From the IMG/VR virus record IMGVR_UViG_3300007541_004710, positions 1 to 24,973 of that record: a stretch of 24,973 nucleotides of DNA. The stretch is one strand, 5' to 3'. Of the stretch, positions 3,001-21,517 are shown piece by piece. Under the pieces are notes generated by a model. It was not told the DNA's origin, searched no databases, and worked only from the letters and a program-made list of their open reading frames with translations. The position numbers and the translations under genes were made by a program. The DNA is from a virus. Position 1 is the first letter of the stretch. Every line of letters begins with the position of its first letter.

Positions 3001-6000
3001 CGTGCGGATTGAGTTATTCGATCCGAACGATACAAGTGACGACCGTTTGAAGTTGCGGATGCTTGCCTCTGTGGACCCGCTGCTGAACAGCTTCTACGTA
3101 GAGATCATGCAGGACAAGTCTTCGGCTTTCTCGCTCATCAATCAGACTCACCGGGCGTTGGAGAAGTCAATGTGGAACACTGCCTCCGCGTTTGAGATGC
3201 TGCGCAAAAACCCGGAATGGGTCAGGAATCTGGCGGACAACTACCGGGGCTTAGTGAGTGCGGAAGCTGTGGCCCGGGTGGCGCAGGACGCCGGACTCTC
3301 GCCAGATGTCCCGCGCCTGTCGCCCGGAGTGGCGATTTACTCCGAGGCGGCAACGATTGCGCAGGCGCTCAAGGTCAACACGATAGAGGGTGGCATCGTT
3401 GGTGCCGGTGCCTTGGGGGTGCGGAACAAACTCTTCGGAGAGACTGTGATCGACAACGTGCCTGCCTCCGCCGAAACGGTTGCACGCATCTCGGATCAAC
3501 TTCGCGTTGCGGACGGTCAAGCAATGGTCAACACGACCAACCCGATTCGGGGCGACGTGCTGTATTCCCGGCGCTCTGACAAAGTCACGGAGGTTCCGGT
3601 CAACAAATCCCTCTGGATCATGCCGGACGGGCGAGTTGTTGACGTGGAGCTTGAGGGGGCGCTCCCGGATGGAAGTGCTTTCTCTCACGGGATATTCGTC
3701 AAGCAATGGGTTTCTGCCCGTCTGAACGCCGGCTTCTGGCCGGATAAGCGTGAGGTTGAGTTGGCGCTCAAGTTGGATCGCCGTGCCAAACAGTTGATGG
3801 AGGAAGATCCGACGCTTGCAGATTTTGACGCAGAAGACGTCGAAGTCCGGTCCGGTGAGTTTGAATCCTTGTCCGACGATCCCGAGATCCAGATGATGCT
3901 TGAAGGCGAGTCTGGCGAAAATCCTTTTGCTGGAGACCTCGCATACAATCAGGCGGCAGTTGAACAAGGCTGGGTCAGAGTCAAGCCGGCGGCGTTTGCC
4001 ACCGAAAAGACTCTCTTCGCGGACACCGTGAGCGGGCGGTTGCCTGCTGCGGTCAGTAAAGTGCTGCAAGAGTCTGTCAAGAAAAACGGATACACGTTGA
4101 ACGTGCTTCGGGGTGGCCCGGCCAACAACCGTGTAGCGTTCACCCGACCCGCTTCCGGGGTGCAATTTATGCGGATGCTTCCCGGACAAGACGAGTGGAA
4201 GAGCCGCCGCTCGGTTCCCCAAGACCCGAACCAACCACTGCCCGCACCTGACCTGCCTACGCGGCGTTTCGCTGACCGGGCGGCCGAGGCAGATGCGCGG
4301 CTTCGGGAAATTCGGGACCGCCGCCCTGACATCGCTTTCCGCGAGCCGCAGTCGCTCGACGACCTGACCGATGTGGCAAGCGGCAAAACGGACGCGCAAC
4401 TGGATGCCCGCCTCGACGAGATGCTGGACGCCACGACGGAGTCCGGCATCAACTCGTTGGTGGTGGACGGCATCGAGGCGCTGCGACGGGCGCAGGACGC
4501 GGGCGACAATGCCCGGATGGAACTGGTGCTGGACCGACTGGCGAAGTTCGGGACCAGTATCGGCCAACTGCTGCGTCAGTTCGCGTTGTTTGGGGACAAG
4601 ATCAAGCCCCGTAACCGACTGGAGATTGTCAAGCTGTGGGTGCAGCGGGACGGGCGCAAGCTGACGCCGCAGATGGAGGCTGATCTCAAGACCTTGATTG
4701 ATGCGGAGGACGCGGCCCGACTGGCGCATGAATCGGCAGTCAAGGCAGCCATCGCAAACCCGTCTGACAGGACTGGCATCAAGGCGGCATTCGTGGCCGA
4801 ACAGGCGCACGACCGGGCATTCCGGCAGATGCAGGCCCGCGTCCGGTCGATGCTGCCCCGCACCAAGGTCAGTCAAGTTCCGGCCGACCTGCTGACGCTC
4901 ATTCAAGGCAACCTCCTGACCCCGCTGTCCACGCTGCGGAACGTGTTCGGTAACTACGTCAGCTATCCACTGCGGCTGGCATCCCGCGTCGTCGGCAGCC
5001 CGCTTGACTGGGCGATCAGCAAAACCACCGGGCGGGACCGGAAGATCATGGCTCCGTCACTGCGCGAACTGGGCTGGTTCGTTCAAGGCTCCGTGCGCGG
5101 TCTGACCAAGGCCAAGGATGCGTTCCTGATCGGTGCGGCGGAGGACGTGATTGTCGGGGAAGCCATCCGTGGGTTCAACCCGGTCCAGTCGTTTGTCGAT
5201 GCGTTCTCGGGGAACCTGCCGGTTGACCCGAACACTGGGCGCGTCCCGAAACGTGACCGGGTCGCCAAGCTGCTTGAGGCGGTGGTCGGCGCTGCCCCGG
5301 AGATGATGCTCCGCTCGTTGTCAGCGTTGGACGAACTGGCGAAGGAAGGCTTCCGCGCGGCGCGACTGGCGGAGGAGACGAAGCTCCGTGGGTTGGAGCG
5401 CGGCACGACGGAGTTCGCCTCCGTCGAACTGGCGGGTGCTCGCAATCTGCGCAAGGGACTGGTGGACGAGGACGCCCGGCAGGCGGCAGAAGCCTCGGCG
5501 TTGCAGCAGACATACCAAGACCTGTCCACCGCCGCGAAGCTGCCGCAAGCCGTCGATAACGCCCTTGCCGGCCTCGGTAAACTCGGACCGGCGATCCGCT
5601 TTGCGTATCGTGTCGGAACCAGTGTATACCAGCGAACCCCGGCGAACCTGTTCGTCGAGGGCTTGAAGTTCGCCATGCCGTCGTTTGGGCTGGCACACGC
5701 TGCGGTCAAGGCCGGGCAGGGTGATCGCCGGGCGGCGATTCAGTCGGCGGGCTACGCGATGATCGGTGCGATGATTCACGCGGCGTTTGACGAACTCGTC
5801 GATGAGGGTGTGGTCTCCGCCGGACCGGAGGAGTCTGACAAGCTGCGCCGGCTGCAAAGCGAGACCGGCATGGGCTACTTCCGGCTGAACGTCTCCGCGT
5901 TGCAGCGCCGCCTTTCTGGCGACGCCGCTGGCGCGGCATTCCGCGACGGCGATGAAACGGTCCGGTTGGACACGCTCGGCGTTCTGGGCTTCACGCTGTC

Positions 6001-6874
6001 CTTGCAGGCGGAACAAAAGCGGCTTGCGGCCAAAGACCCGAAGGCGGTGCCGCCAAGTCTCATGGGGGCTGACTTCCACTCGGCAATGACCGGGATTATG
6101 GCAAGTGGACGATTCGCAATGAACTACACCATGCTCGGTGGCGCGGCCGATCTGCTTGCTGCTGTCGAGCGGGGCGGCGGCGCGATGAACAAATGGGCGG
6201 CTAACGTGTGGAACCAACTCACAGCGATTCCGGTTCCGAACACGCTAGTATCGTTTGCACGCACCGAACATGACGCACGCAAGCAAACCTACATCCCGAA
6301 CGAACTTGGCGCGACCATGCGGAACATTGGCAGCGAGAAGGTGCAGGCGTTGCCGCTGCCGGGCGATTTGAAGCAACGGGTTCTGGATGCAATGGACCTG
6401 CCGGCAAACCTGCCGAACCGGCTCAATATCTGGGGCGAGCCGATGAAGGCGACACCGGAGGGCCAAAACCCGCTCTACTACCACCTGTTCGACGTGTTCA
6501 AGACGCAACAGGTTCAGTCGGATGCCAGCGAAGCACTGTTCCGGCTTCACCGTCTGACCGGCAGCACGGACATGATCCCGCCGGACGTCGGCCGGGAGGT
6601 CACGCTCAAGGGCGTCAAGTTTGCCGTGCCGAACGACCTGTGGGAAAAGCGTGTCAAAGCAATCCAGCCGCTACGCAAGGCGGTGTTTGAGCAGTATCTG
6701 TCTGACCCTCGCTGGCGGGAGATGCTCGGCCGGCGACCAGACGTGGCACTCAACACCTTGAGCCGCGCTTATGCGAAAGTCGGGCAACGTGGTGAACTGC
6801 TCTGGCGACGCGACAATGCCACACAGCTTGACAAGCTCCGGTCCGACCTGACGACTTACCTTGGCTCCCGCTGA
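26..6874 (+). CDS. Giant phage polyvalent-type protein with HExxH zinc-peptidase motif
   Basis: This frame of about 2282 residues is uninterrupted and open to the window edge, so the gene may begin further left; TTG at 26 and ATG at 50 are only the first internal candidates. Visible features in order: a Gly/Ala-rich, partly hydrophobic stretch at about 125-235; a zincin-like HEGAHGHFD motif near 444-452; a Pro/Ala/Glu-rich low-complexity stretch with three KSGQT repeats at about 833-855; two YSRR motifs near 915 and 1178, which in phage polyvalent proteins often mark processing boundaries; and a helical C-terminal third with hydrophobic segments near 1628-1660 and 1895-1915. Size and mosaic structure match polyvalent proteins that ride in the virion and act on the host after DNA injection. 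The role is inferred; the peptidase and any effector domains are unproven. The 3' end overlaps the convergent small gene by 19 bases. Confidence 0.8.
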   Translation: MTNARLLEMPNGLHQLWRQVESDPRFGKLDTDGKLTVLARFADGWREKHGNVFGLTGLENAVSQRLLNPPKEEGLVASFANQASDDFIAQMDPALFAQDPESFRPMFDTLYEQEVENGAPQRSFVGSVAGSLAQSIGQAAPVAAVASAAGPQAGGAALLIGSAAAESAKAFGYAFKQNYFSELDKGADPDKAFDTAKTAAFVTAGLTGAANLVAPVGAANKIAGGALGKTAAKLATPIAKAVNRLPGATTGGAARFVRDDVLIAGVDDVGFEALDVAQERLQGLDTSERKGGLLERMGLAFGMGSAIRGSAGAATKGFAGVRNVFEGRRFSQGLFDEENIRGIFGSIQQRMRSDERGGAGGLDLTDLRSGERLTDRITQGERDSVMRLWSIITNDTKPLDVSFVNREGEGGADAAYSSAARAISVFNGMFTWRGDKVKRVTLLHEGAHGHFDTLPDDIQVALRALYEKELETKTGILFDKDGKPRAVSDDIRNNPDPEVRFKEWYADTMAFHQDRWAKRDVDPEGGFWNNLASDFRVKAERVGRALGFGDGLNNTFRDFLDAGNRYQFDRQKGRPVRGALVAANPVALRSQQELEASGNAPAKRESYHPVLIGGGDPLNPNAKVLTPNEVNAVTRGEIVGPNSPTERTAPLVLPHSVVRQQIEEALANIETEAEARERLRVDLGVADVVAQNEAARRPGGGPTATRLRAAQNAREQLAIRPAQESPVETGQPTPPQPEPPATQPAARPTEAGATVTASPSPTAPVRLGFRSDRGDVETRRAELLTSLPAKFPKAAKYVPAAVNRALTHKALDDVVLRMEQLESTLPDTAAPRKSGQTRPKSGQTEPAPPKSGQTEPAEPLTAQAKAMRNALRERGAGASSAEEFRRKLAQARAERDIREGFESDPTPPEPEQFDLYSRRGKVDVNEVLPLSAEQVSAELRVRRSKVRTALVTEQPTRHALSDAGMAYEDATGLRFSSRIIERNENDPTSPVDVRIELFDPNDTSDDRLKLRMLASVDPLLNSFYVEIMQDKSSAFSLINQTHRALEKSMWNTASAFEMLRKNPEWVRNLADNYRGLVSAEAVARVAQDAGLSPDVPRLSPGVAIYSEAATIAQALKVNTIEGGIVGAGALGVRNKLFGETVIDNVPASAETVARISDQLRVADGQAMVNTTNPIRGDVLYSRRSDKVTEVPVNKSLWIMPDGRVVDVELEGALPDGSAFSHGIFVKQWVSARLNAGFWPDKREVELALKLDRRAKQLMEEDPTLADFDAEDVEVRSGEFESLSDDPEIQMMLEGESGENPFAGDLAYNQAAVEQGWVRVKPAAFATEKTLFADTVSGRLPAAVSKVLQESVKKNGYTLNVLRGGPANNRVAFTRPASGVQFMRMLPGQDEWKSRRSVPQDPNQPLPAPDLPTRRFADRAAEADARLREIRDRRPDIAFREPQSLDDLTDVASGKTDAQLDARLDEMLDATTESGINSLVVDGIEALRRAQDAGDNARMELVLDRLAKFGTSIGQLLRQFALFGDKIKPRNRLEIVKLWVQRDGRKLTPQMEADLKTLIDAEDAARLAHESAVKAAIANPSDRTGIKAAFVAEQAHDRAFRQMQARVRSMLPRTKVSQVPADLLTLIQGNLLTPLSTLRNVFGNYVSYPLRLASRVVGSPLDWAISKTTGRDRKIMAPSLRELGWFVQGSVRGLTKAKDAFLIGAAEDVIVGEAIRGFNPVQSFVDAFSGNLPVDPNTGRVPKRDRVAKLLEAVVGAAPEMMLRSLSALDELAKEGFRAARLAEETKLRGLERGTTEFASVELAGARNLRKGLVDEDARQAAEASALQQTYQDLSTAAKLPQAVDNALAGLGKLGPAIRFAYRVGTSVYQRTPANLFVEGLKFAMPSFGLAHAAVKAGQGDRRAAIQSAGYAMIGAMIHAAFDELVDEGVVSAGPEESDKLRRLQSETGMGYFRLNVSALQRRLSGDAAGAAFRDGDETVRLDTLGVLGFTLSLQAEQKRLAAKDPKAVPPSLMGADFHSAMTGIMASGRFAMNYTMLGGAADLLAAVERGGGAMNKWAANVWNQLTAIPVPNTLVSFARTEHDARKQTYIPNELGATMRNIGSEKVQALPLPGDLKQRVLDAMDLPANLPNRLNIWGEPMKATPEGQNPLYYHLFDVFKTQQVQSDASEALFRLHRLTGSTDMIPPDVGREVTLKGVKFAVPNDLWEKRVKAIQPLRKAVFEQYLSDPRWREMLGRRPDVALNTLSRAYAKVGQRGELLWRRDNATQLDKLRSDLTTYLGSR
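2522..2587 (+). repeat. Three spaced copies of a 15-base coding repeat (KSGQT)
   Basis: The 15-mer AAGTCGGGTCAGACA occurs at 2522-2536, 2543-2557 and 2573-2587 without a mismatch, giving KSGQT three times in a Pro/Glu-rich linker of the giant protein. Each copy contains the window-wide 7-mer GTCAGAC. Exact nucleotide identity, not just peptide identity, suggests recent duplication or selection on the DNA word. Confidence 0.9.
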
Positions 6875-17016: not shown

Positions 17017-17468
<452 letters not shown>

Positions 17469-18111: not shown

Positions 18112-19677
18112 TCAGTGGGCCAGTGTGTAAGTTACAAGTTGCGAGGCGAGTTCGTCGCCGCTAAGGGCGAGGGCCGCTCGGCCGAAGTGCCGTGCCATGA
18201 TCGGACGACGCCGCTCTCGATCAGCCTCGTTGTCGCAGACCAGTGCGCCGATCAGATCGACGCCTTTCCGGCGTAACTCTCCAGCGTCAACAGTCCCATC
18301 GGTCAGATCGCCGTCCGTGTAGACAACGGTGACGTCAGACGAATGCATGTGTTCCCGCACCCCGGCGTGCTCTAGCGTGGCTTTCACACCCTCTGATGAG
18401 GAGAAATGGTGGATGGGTATAATCCAACTAGCCGGCCAACAAGGATTGACGTAGGTCGTTTTTCCCTGCCCGGTGAGCCATATATTTACTACCAGAAGCC
18501 CCCTTCGGTGAAGGGCCATGAGTGCCAGCATGAGTTCGAGCGCCTCCCCCATCCGTAGGGGTGATGCCATCGAGCCGCTCATATCCATGACGAGTGTCAG
18601 ACAGCGCCGTCCGGCGTCTGCCTTGATCGACCGGAACGATTGGGCGGCCCCGACCATGATTCCCGGAATGTGCAAGTGGCTCCCACTAGTGGATAATTGC
18701 GTCCGTCGATGTCCTGCCCGGTGGACCAACCCGGTCAGCCGGGTTATCAGGCCTCTCACGTTGCGAACAGACCATTTCTTACGCTCACCGCCCGGTCGAT
18801 ACCAATACCGCACGTCGCGTTCTTCATCTGCCGTCAGCGACGGACCGGATTCAAGATCCGCCGGCAGCGGCTCCGGCTCCGCGTCGGACGGATCGCTTCC
18901 TCCGGTGGAGTATCCGCTGCCGGCCGTCCCAGTCGTGGACGGATCGGCGGTTCCGCCGATATTGTCAGACCCCCTGACCGTCACGGACGGCCGGCCGAAA
19001 AGCTCGAGCCACTTCGCGCAGAGGGGCAGCAGATCCGTCGGTTTCGCGGCTTTACATGCCTTACGATAAAAGTCAGCGATGACACTCTTGTTGGCCGGGG
19101 TGCCGGCCCATTTGCAGTCCGGCGGATATACCCGGCTCCGGTGTGACGTCTCCGCATTTATCATTGCCCAGAAATACACCTCTGGAAGCGAGGTATGCGA
19201 AGGGGCCGGCGTCCAGTTGCGCCAGCGAAACCACTTGGTCGGCTTGTGGGGGTGCGTTCGCTTGTGCTCCTCCCGGTCGAGGTGCTCGATGCGGGCATCT
19301 TCAAACAGATTGAACAGCCGGAACGGGACTCCACAATCTTGCAACCACCGGCAAAGATCAGGCATTGATTGCGGGAAGGTGAACAACGCATGGTCTGCTT
19401 CGTGTCGAAGCAGCGATTGAGCATACTCGACCCGCTGTCTATCACTGATGCCAGCAGCACAAGGGGCGTCGAAGTCCAGCCCGAGGGTGATGACGTGCTT
19501 GTTATCAATAAAGGTCCACGACACCTCTGTAGATGGCGGGTTTTCCATCCTTGCTGGTTTACGGGTTCGCTCCACCGCCGTCCTTACCCGACCGGGTTGC
19601 TGGCGGCTAGTTTTTCGGCGACGCTGGTTTCTCCATGCTGCGGCGATTATTGCTTCTTTAGTCATAGTCATAGTCAT
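18112..19677 (-). CDS. CobT-like protein: zincin-type motif plus VWA domain
   Basis: The 521-residue product has a basic N-terminus, a RHEADHALF HExxH motif near 91-99 followed by LFNLFEDARIEHL near 123-135 (a likely third zinc ligand region, as in CobT-type VWA proteins), a Ser/Gly/Pro-rich acidic linker near 240-285, and a C-terminal von Willebrand factor A domain with MIDAS motif DMSGSMAS near 364-371 and TDGDLTDG near 451-458. VWA proteins of this kind work with MoxR/CobS-type AAA+ ATPases, here encoded directly upstream, in metal insertion or protein remodelling. No cobaltochelatase CobN is present. ATG repeats at 19677, 19671 and 19665 leave the exact start open. Confidence 0.82.
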   Translation of the reverse strand: MTMTMTKEAIIAAAWRNQRRRKTSRQQPGRVRTAVERTRKPARMENPPSTEVSWTFIDNKHVITLGLDFDAPCAAGISDRQRVEYAQSLLRHEADHALFTFPQSMPDLCRWLQDCGVPFRLFNLFEDARIEHLDREEHKRTHPHKPTKWFRWRNWTPAPSHTSLPEVYFWAMINAETSHRSRVYPPDCKWAGTPANKSVIADFYRKACKAAKPTDLLPLCAKWLELFGRPSVTVRGSDNIGGTADPSTTGTAGSGYSTGGSDPSDAEPEPLPADLESGPSLTADEERDVRYWYRPGGERKKWSVRNVRGLITRLTGLVHRAGHRRTQLSTSGSHLHIPGIMVGAAQSFRSIKADAGRRCLTLVMDMSGSMASPLRMGEALELMLALMALHRRGLLVVNIWLTGQGKTTYVNPCWPASWIIPIHHFSSSEGVKATLEHAGVREHMHSSDVTVVYTDGDLTDGTVDAGELRRKGVDLIGALVCDNEADRERRRPIMARHFGRAALALSGDELASQLVTYTLAH

Positions 19678-19740
19678 AGTGAGTGAGTGAGTGAGTGAGT
19701 GAGTGAGTGAGTGAGTGAGTGAGTGAGTGAGTGAGTGAGT
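19660..19740. repeat. (GAGT)15 tetranucleotide repeat and (AGTCAT)3 filling the ATPase-VWA gene gap
   Basis: Fifteen uninterrupted copies of GAGT run from 19681 to 19740, the last base being part of the ATPase stop codon. They are followed by three copies of AGTCAT (19660-19677) that supply three alternative in-frame ATG starts for the VWA gene. The whole intercistronic gap is thus repeat, with no Shine-Dalgarno sequence. Long pure tetranucleotide tracts are hypermutable in bacteria and typical of phase-variable loci. Confidence 0.97.
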
Positions 19741-21128
19741 TACACCTTCAAGGCTTTGGCCCAGCCGCTGATCGCGGCTTTGGACTCGCTCACCATATCA
19801 CCCGTGTCTCCGTCCCACAGGGCGAGGCTGTCTGTCAGACAGTCGGCGAGCGCGGCCTTCACGGCGGGAACCGTAGGCTCCGCCGCATGACCACACGCCC
19901 GGCGTAGGATGCGGAACGAACACGGGAAGGCGATCCGCCCGGCCTTCACCGCTTCCCGGCTTTCGCCGACCAGCATAGCGAAAGCCTCGGCGAAACCCGG
20001 CACGTTTCCGCTCACGCCGAAAGAGTTGACAATATCTGCCGCGATGCTCGCGGCAGTGTCCTTGTCCCAGTCGATGCGAACATGGTGCCAGCGGTCCCAG
20101 AACGCCTCGACCGGGCGGTGCATTGTGAGGTTTGTGGCCCCTACAATGTGGAGGTGAGTCATCGGGGATTCGATGACTTCAAGCGCCCCGCTGGCGTCCA
20201 TCTTGCGGGTTCGCATCCGGTAAACCCTGCCTGACGGGGTGTTCACCCCGGTCAGGAACGTGAGCAGCCACTCTTGCGCCTTTGGCGAGAGCCGGAGCAC
20301 TTCATCGAGGAGGAGCAGGACTGTCTGCCCAGACCCTGCGGCACGAACCGCCTCAGCCATAACGCCGTCTACGACGGCGAACGATCCCTTCCCGTCCGGG
20401 ACGGGATTTCCCAGCAGGGTCGAGACTTCGTCGATGTCATCCGAACAGCCGTGTTCGAGATACCGGTCGTAAGACCGGCCGAGTAGCCGGATGGTGTGGC
20501 TCTTGCCGAAGGACGGCGGACTGCAAAGCAGCACCGGGTCCACGTATGACTCGACCCCGGCCTTGTAGAGCGGGGCGAGCTTGTCCATGATTGCGTTACC
20601 GCTTGCGGCAGCGGCGATCACCGGGATGCGAGCCGCCGTGGCTTTGTCTTTAGCGACGAGGTCGATCAAGGCTTCTGCCGCCTTGGTCTGGTCGTAGATG
20701 TCCCGGATTTCATCCGCCATTGCCTCCAGTGCCGGATCGACCGTGGCCGCGAGGATGCTCTTGACGGCATCCTCGTCTACGCCAGCCGGATTCGACGCCA
20801 GTTTGGCGTCTACGACGGCGGCAATCGCCGCCTCAAAGATCCCCAGAGCGGGAGCCGGGGCAGCCGGGGCAGCCGGGGCAGCCGGGGCAGCCGGGGCAGC
20901 CGGGGCGATTTTGAACCCCTTGGCATCGACCTTTCCGGCGACCCAATCCCGGAGGATCGTGTCAGACTCGTCTTGCCAGACGACATTGAGGTTTTCCATC
21001 ACGGCGTTCGCCACGATGACCCCGTCAACACCGGCAGCAGTTAGCCACGCTCGGACAGCGCCTCGATTGGCGCTTGTGATTGGGGTCGAACGGTCACCGA
21101 TGATTGCGATTGCTTGTGCAGTAGTCAT
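19740..21128 (-). CDS. MoxR/CobS-like AAA+ ATPase
   Basis: The 462-residue product has an N-terminal domain (1-70), an Ala-Ala-Pro repeat linker (about 75-92), a helical region, then a AAA+ module with Walker A PPSFGKSHT near 203-211, Walker B LLLLDE near 271-276, sensor 1 VGATN near 327-331, an arginine-finger candidate in WDRWHHVR and a sensor 2-like SFRILRRACGHA. This is the MoxR/CobS type, which partners with VWA proteins. The partner gene lies directly downstream across the GAGT repeat. The start has AAAGGAAG about five bases upstream, one of the few clear ribosome-binding sites here. Likely a chaperone-like remodelling motor; the substrate is unknown. Confidence 0.87.
   Translation of the reverse strand: MTTAQAIAIIGDRSTPITSANRGAVRAWLTAAGVDGVIVANAVMENLNVVWQDESDTILRDWVAGKVDAKGFKIAPAAPAAPAAPAAPAAPAPALGIFEAAIAAVVDAKLASNPAGVDEDAVKSILAATVDPALEAMADEIRDIYDQTKAAEALIDLVAKDKATAARIPVIAAAASGNAIMDKLAPLYKAGVESYVDPVLLCSPPSFGKSHTIRLLGRSYDRYLEHGCSDDIDEVSTLLGNPVPDGKGSFAVVDGVMAEAVRAAGSGQTVLLLLDEVLRLSPKAQEWLLTFLTGVNTPSGRVYRMRTRKMDASGALEVIESPMTHLHIVGATNLTMHRPVEAFWDRWHHVRIDWDKDTAASIAADIVNSFGVSGNVPGFAEAFAMLVGESREAVKAGRIAFPCSFRILRRACGHAAEPTVPAVKAALADCLTDSLALWDGDTGDMVSESKAAISGWAKALKV
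20854..20907 (-). repeat. Six tandem copies of a 9-base repeat encoding Ala-Ala-Pro
   Basis: GCCGGGGCA is repeated five times exactly, with a sixth copy differing in its last base, encoding an Ala-Ala-Pro linker between the N-terminal domain and the AAA+ part. The unit is a multiple of three, so copy-number change would alter linker length without breaking the frame. Confidence 0.95.
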
Positions 21129-21146
21129 TCTGTCTTCCTTTCATTT

Positions 21147-21159
21147 TGAGGGTTTACGG
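21147..21159 (-). promoter_or_regulatory. Leader motif before the ATPase gene
   Basis: On the plus strand TGAGGGTTTACGG lies 18 bases before the ATPase start. Nearly the same word, TGAGGGTTACGG, lies at 21533-21544, 15 bases before the next minus-strand gene. Both follow strong hairpins. The role is unknown; a translation-initiation or promoter signal is inferred from position only. Confidence 0.4.
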
Positions 21160-21168
21160 AGCATGATT

Positions 21169-21217
21169 ACTCCCTGCTGGACACTGTCTGTCAGACAGTG
21201 CCCAGACGGGAGGAGTC
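21169..21217 (-). promoter_or_regulatory. Long imperfect hairpin with a perfect 19-base palindrome core
   Basis: CACTGTCTG (21182-21190) and CAGACAGTG (21192-21200) form a perfect palindrome around one T. Outer arms (ACTCCC on the left, GGGAGGAGT on the right) extend the pairing. It lies seven bases after the small basic gene and about 40 bases before the ATPase start. A terminator-like or operator role is possible. The core contains the GTCTGTCAGAC word also found at 19830 and 22036. Confidence 0.6.
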
Positions 21218-21223
21218 ATTGGC

Positions 21224-21517
21224 TTACTTCGACTTCGGCGAGAAGATCACAGTCACCGAACCGGACTTTTCCGTATGGCGGAGCGATTTCAGAGTATGTG
21301 TTTTAAGCAGTTCCCGGGTGACTTCCCGGCCGGCCACGGCGAGGTATTTGCGGAACGTCCGCTTGAGGTCTTGACCTTTTAGGCCGGTTGCCTTTCCGAA
21401 TTCCCGTTGGGACAACACTTGCCCCTTTGTTCCAGTTTTGAGATGGCTTGCCTTGTGGCATACTTTGTCGGTGAAGAACAGTGAAGCGGCGTTGACGAGT
21501 AGTGTGGACTTTTTCAT
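21224..21517 (-). CDS. Small basic protein with possible HTH, unknown function
   Basis: The 97-residue product is strongly basic. A central stretch (LSQREFGKATGLKGQDLKR, about 35-53) could form a helix-turn-helix, followed by a helix with RKYLAVAGREVTRELLK and a beta-rich C-terminus. I do not recognise the family. It is the first gene of the leftward accessory module, behind a leader with three or four hairpins, so a DNA-binding regulator of the module is a reasonable guess. The ATG is preceded by GAAAACACAC, similar to the start context of the two short genes near 18 kb. Confidence 0.65.
   Translation of the reverse strand: MKKSTLLVNAASLFFTDKVCHKASHLKTGTKGQVLSQREFGKATGLKGQDLKRTFRKYLAVAGREVTRELLKTHTLKSLRHTEKSGSVTVIFSPKSK

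Follow-up and report, generated by a model that had tools for sequence, protein, structure and literature searches.

A 63-nt perfect tetranucleotide repeat fills the gap between two genes of a viral DNA record, a MoxR/NorQ-like ATPase gene and a VWA gene, and the best reading, held with slightly less than even confidence, is that a slippage-born, unstructured repeat lacking an SD makes up the whole mRNA leader of the VWA gene. The stretch analysed (the window) is a complete IMG/VR record of 24,973 bp, which is the whole contig and possibly a genome fragment. The features concerned are as follows.

18112-19677, minus strand: VWA (NorD/CobT-like) gene, 521 aa, with a DxSGSM MIDAS motif and an N-terminal HExxH ... 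FEDARIE region; the tract is its putative leader
19659-19680, minus strand: hexanucleotide repeat (TAGTCA)3.7, with three in-frame ATGs
19678-19740, minus strand: perfect tetranucleotide tract, (AGTG)15.8 on the plus strand and (CTCA/ACTC)n on the coding strand
19740-21128, minus strand: MoxR/NorQ-like AAA+ ATPase gene, 462 aa, with the tract beginning at its stop codon
21224-21517, minus strand: 97-aa gene upstream of the ATPase gene, its order kept in the related locus L009 (42% identity)

The tract as a leader

Read on the plus strand, the 63 nt contain fifteen perfect GAGT units (60 nt, 19681-19740), as the original prediction had it, and the predicted identity of repeat and intergenic gap also stood: both genes lie on the minus strand, and the 62 nt that separate them (19678-19739) are repeat throughout. 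The first base of the tract on the coding strand, 19740, is the final A of the ATPase TAA stop (19742-19740), in agreement with the claim that the repeat begins at that codon. At the other end the tract runs on the coding strand into the hexanucleotide, which there reads ATGACT three times and thus supplies the three alternative VWA starts that had been proposed, in-frame ATGs at 19677, 19671 and 19665, each 6 nt apart. The encoded protein begins MTMTMTKEA, and the distance from tract to start is 0 nt. Units can be gained or lost without change to either protein, as had been noted, and a chance origin of the tract is excluded.

On the coding strand the tract lacks G, any SD-like motif and, in every frame, start and stop codons; no G-free run in the window is longer than the one found there (67 nt). 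At the VWA start the anti-SD duplex is worth only -0.3 kcal/mol, with no G in 30 nt, and the region from -30 to +30 folds at -0.4 kcal/mol, the weakest value among 12 window genes; all of 200 dinucleotide shuffles of the leader region folded better (z 2.97). An SD is also missing at the primase, polymerase, helicase and ssb-like genes and at orf74 of the window, so that SD-less starts look usual for this virus. Genes without an SD are generally marked by weak structure around their starts, which favours non-SD initiation, and in low-SD groups, Planctomycetes and Bacteroidetes included, there are signs of leaderless initiation or of starts that depend on S1 (PMC5397173).

In the mechanism that would follow from the leader reading, a simple repeat born by slippage becomes the whole VWA mRNA leader, and ribosomes would start the VWA gene without an SD by landing on the open single-stranded leader, probably using the first AUGs of the three. 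Orientation would be kept, (ACTC)n being harmless or helpful before a start and (GAGT)n bringing GUG starts and UGA stops. Copy number would drift via 4-nt slippage with both proteins untouched, and any influence on VWA level would presumably be slight and graded, not on/off. A search near the tract gave no promoter-like site, and a model based on promoter spacing was rejected for lack of such an element.

The ATPase-VWA pair and its variable gap

The gene names ATPase and VWA given earlier are upheld by motifs and by fold matches. The ATPase carries SFGKS (P-loop) and LLLLDE (Walker B), and the VWA protein combines its MIDAS motif with invariant HExxH and FEDARIE elements, a region whose sequence hints at a metal site or at a part resembling a metallopeptidase. 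Pfam and PHROG scans with the single sequences of the two window genes gave no match, and the proteins of relatives match Pfam AAA_5 and VWA weakly. AlphaFold models of both proteins have a mean pLDDT of about 77 each; the best PDB fold matches of the ATPase model are the NorQ/CbbQ MoxR ATPases (E down to 1e-10), and that of the VWA model is NorD (E 8.5e-5). With a MoxR-type AAA+ fold and a MIDAS-bearing VWA protein, the pair is more precisely a NorQ/NorD-like MoxR-VWA pair.

With known NorQ-NorD pairs it has in common the order, ATPase then VWA, and best fold matches to NorQ and NorD complexes. It differs from them in identity (just 16-20% to the NorQ matches and 14-19% to NorD), in long extra N-terminal regions, and in its neighbours, which are viral (integrase, DNA polymerase, helicase, terminase); no nitric oxide reductase or other cellular metalloenzyme is associated with it among the window neighbours. 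The pair is present in many uncultivated viruses; when the region, the ATPase and the VWA protein were searched against 50,697 phage records at the DNA and protein levels, nothing matched. A profile of the ATPase matched nothing in genome contigs or in 392 genomes of one Planctomycetota-derived group, and an integrase profile matched nothing in the 392 genomes. The MoxR-VWA pair is conserved across many uncultivated viruses, where it has no known role, and did not turn up in isolate phages. Within the ATPase gene, six perfect 9-nt repeats (20853-20906) encode an (AAP)n linker.

The closest relative, L009, has a 106-aa gene, an ATPase (44% identity in the best segment), a VWA gene and, further on, an integrase; the three-gene block of the window at 18112-21517 (97-aa protein, NorQ-like ATPase, NorD-like VWA) is in the same order there. 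Its gap is 49 nt long, pyrimidine-rich and free of the repeat, and has an ordinary SD (gaaaggaa), from which it follows that the repeat is not required for the gene pair. The tetranucleotide tract was found in none of 26 related ATPase-VWA loci, and no close relatives sharing it were found for a length comparison, in searches that may not have covered near-identical records. Gaps across these loci range from overlap (L047) through 1 nt (L030, L031) up to about 106 nt (L040), with a small gene inserted in the gap of two of them. Some have few Gs and carry repeats of their own: that of L037 is CCAATACCAATACCAATATG, without an SD, and that of L027 has (CA)6 plus an SD. Spacing is therefore not conserved, and the tract is to be seen as a recent, lineage-specific filling of a gap that is free in length.

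These comparisons bear on the proposal that repeat number would alter gene spacing and with it translational coupling. As in termination-reinitiation systems, there are two co-directional genes, whose products likely form one complex, on one probable transcript; the difference is a gap of 62 nt instead of an overlap or fewer than about 20 nt (PMC10666635). In some relatives the two genes do overlap or are 1 nt apart. Experiments with native gene pairs in E. coli and Haloferax showed that stop-restart coupling is all but lost once the gap reaches about 20 nt (PMC10666635), so gain or loss of 4 nt within 62 nt should hardly matter to it. Spacing-dependent coupling across the gap is unlikely, and with the gap unconserved in 26 loci this part of the original prediction is not supported.

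A repeat that simply grew by slippage in an unconstrained gap, is tolerated there and does nothing would also be absent from relatives whose gaps vary so widely, and the perfect (GA)15 at 17413-17442 together with the sixfold 9-nt repeat in the ATPase gene would fit general repeat growth. Such a neutral product is unlikely on balance, though it retains a real share of the probability. Since the leader stands in the place of the relative's SD and the gene is intact, it must at least permit initiation; the strand on which similar tracts occur before viral starts, described below, is a second point against neutrality.

Recurrence and length variation in other viruses

The claim that long pure tetranucleotide tracts are unusual was confirmed for viruses: in 2.9 million IMG/VR contigs, at least 8 copies occur in just 16 other stretches and at least 6 in 33. 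The window tract is the second longest perfect one in these scans (L016 has 85 nt; L018 has 59 nt at a contig edge). Among 27 independent viral tracts of at least 6 units, the C-strand (ACTC) ends no more than 15 nt before a same-strand ATG in nine and the G-strand (GAGT) in one, small numbers that include among the nine a doubtful ORF (L065). A start was counted here as an ATG ORF of at least 40 aa, for which the background is 5.4% per strand. The bias is significant by sign test (p = 0.02; 0.04 without the window) and stable over thresholds. In 99 bacterial tracts there is no asymmetry (4 C-strand, 5 G-strand before starts).

Clear leader cases with unrelated downstream genes are L022, where 45 nt end on the ATG; L014, with 45 nt, TT and ATG; L020/L024, with 34 nt, TT and ATG; and L016, L010, L064 and L070. 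The leader anatomy of the window tract is also that of L016/L061/L067 and L010/L015/L021, and is shared by the shorter tracts of L195 and L197. Within the 6 nt after (CACT)4, ATG occurs in 15 stretches and the control GTA in five, at least two of which are themselves leaders with the ATG slightly further on. Viral gaps always lie near a start, and enrichment over random positions was therefore not taken as main evidence; the strand comparison alone was used.

The viral strand bias may reflect selection for a good leader, or just selection against (GAGT)n placing GUG or UGA before a start. Purifying selection of the latter kind could produce the bias around a neutral repeat as well, and the bacterial tracts, with no start-codon preference, also suit that view; the asymmetry of nine to one before viral starts nevertheless speaks against a purely neutral product. 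The wider proposition, that viruses have repeatedly evolved G-free, slippage-prone leaders, mainly (ACTC)n, which act as SD-independent ribosome landing strips before starts, with length polymorphism giving cheap, protein-neutral expression variation, is put forward as a doubtful generalization, with perhaps a modest chance of being correct. Two further patterns were seen: long (ACTC)n tracts recur in Bacteroidetes genomes (loci L074-L192), for example in Rufibacter and Hymenobacter, and in all tracts analysed the GAGT strand follows gene ends in 24 cases and the ACTC strand in 10, unlike the viral-leader pattern.

The same recurrence bears on two explanations in which translation of the VWA gene plays no part. 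Long purine/pyrimidine-biased repeats can bind proteins or adopt unusual DNA forms, and a second such tract, the (GA)15, lies near the integrase; the repeat might then be a protein-binding site, a recombination hot spot or the source of an antisense transcript. This is very unlikely, given that no Rfam family, tRNA or promoter-like site was found at the tract and that the recurrent position is set by start codon and coding strand, which an element acting at the DNA level would not require. The sequence comes from a metagenome contig, and assemblers easily misjudge the length of repeats, so this one could have been made or lengthened during assembly; but an ordinary short read would exceed its 63 nt, both flanking genes are undamaged and arranged as in L009, and equivalent tracts occur in independent samples and contigs. 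An assembly artefact is the least probable account of all, and barely credible.

Length variation was seen directly in one case. L061 and L067, from different IMG data sets, agree at every position of a 4068-nt alignment apart from a single 4-nt gap, which falls within the (ACTC)n tract that forms the leader of a 96-aa gene (coordinates about 150-230 and 3740-3825). This difference of one ACTC unit means that slippage happens in nature and that such leaders mutate there by whole units. L016, about 96% identical to both, has its pure 85-nt tract where theirs is degenerate. The tract of L010/L015/L021, in contrast, is constant at 36 nt, though 9 SNPs over 10 kb part two of them; whole-unit change is therefore real but not always fast. 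Length variation of the window tract is plausible.

A phase-variable rheostat was raised as a possibility by the original prediction; in such a reading frequent slippage would tune VWA output and give a mixed virus population. The tract is a long perfect repeat beside a gene, as contingency loci are, and its 15.8 perfect units are within the range known for them; in the 5' leader of Moraxella uspA2, 6-23 AGAT copies give number-dependent expression (PMC4679880, PMC7302503). The one-unit polymorphism in the equivalent L061/L067 leader and the pure versus degenerate tracts of L016 and its relatives point the same way. The constant 36 nt of L010/L015/L021, the improbable coupling across 62 nt (PMC10666635), the lack near the tract of a promoter-like element whose spacing could shift, and the related loci without any tract all count against it. 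A rheostat is accordingly judged improbable; of the underlying phase-variation idea, the slippage part is possible and the coupling part unsupported.

Known repeat leaders and other repeats of the window

Cellular pathogens are well known to tune expression by means of repeats. Two known repeat leaders resemble the window tract. TAACTGA direct repeats precede start codons in Beggiatoaceae, some Cyanobacteria and Bacteroidetes (MacGregor 2015, PMC4679880); a translational role has been proposed for them, and related strains differ mostly by whole units (PMC4679880). They too are short tandem repeats, lie mostly between genes with one orientation preferred, commonly stop a few nt short of a start codon and usually lack an RBS (PMC4679880), and the corresponding features here are the strand preference of nine to one, the tract end at 0 nt from the start codon, and the anti-SD duplex of -0.3 kcal/mol. 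The unit is a different one, CTCA/ACTC: the TAACTGA repeat is a heptamer with G and stop codons, present in many sets per cellular genome (PMC4679880), whereas the window has one copy of a G-free tetramer, in a virus.

The AGAT repeat of uspA2 in Moraxella catarrhalis is likewise a pure tetranucleotide of similar copy number, variable, and located in a leader outside the CDS (PMC7302503). It belongs to a monocistronic surface-protein gene of a cellular pathogen with its own promoter, has a graded effect at the mRNA level, and lies 132 bp upstream of the ORF (PMC7302503), whereas the window tract fills an operon gap. A literature search turned up no virus in which a repeat makes up a gene's entire leader. 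Repeat leaders such as TAACTGA and the uspA2 AGAT are thus already known, and the viral, G-free, gap-filling form is new. If (ACTC)n leaders do drive initiation, they would provide a minimal natural model of SD-independent initiation together with a slippage-tunable part.

Other repeats of the window lie upstream of the integrase. The 8-mer GGTGGACC / GGTCCACC forms a cluster there in both orientations, at 17066-17467 of the window and at 6290-6621 of L009. In the window, 8 of 10 copies fall within 402 bp, where about 1.5 would be expected in the whole window; the corresponding place of L009 has 4 copies in 332 bp. Some copies are paired as inverted repeats, and the cluster could possibly represent operators, integrase arm sites or replication iterons. 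The (GA)15 run lies within this cluster, and the corresponding region of L009 has (AG)10.5 at 6449-6469, on the other strand relative to the integrase.
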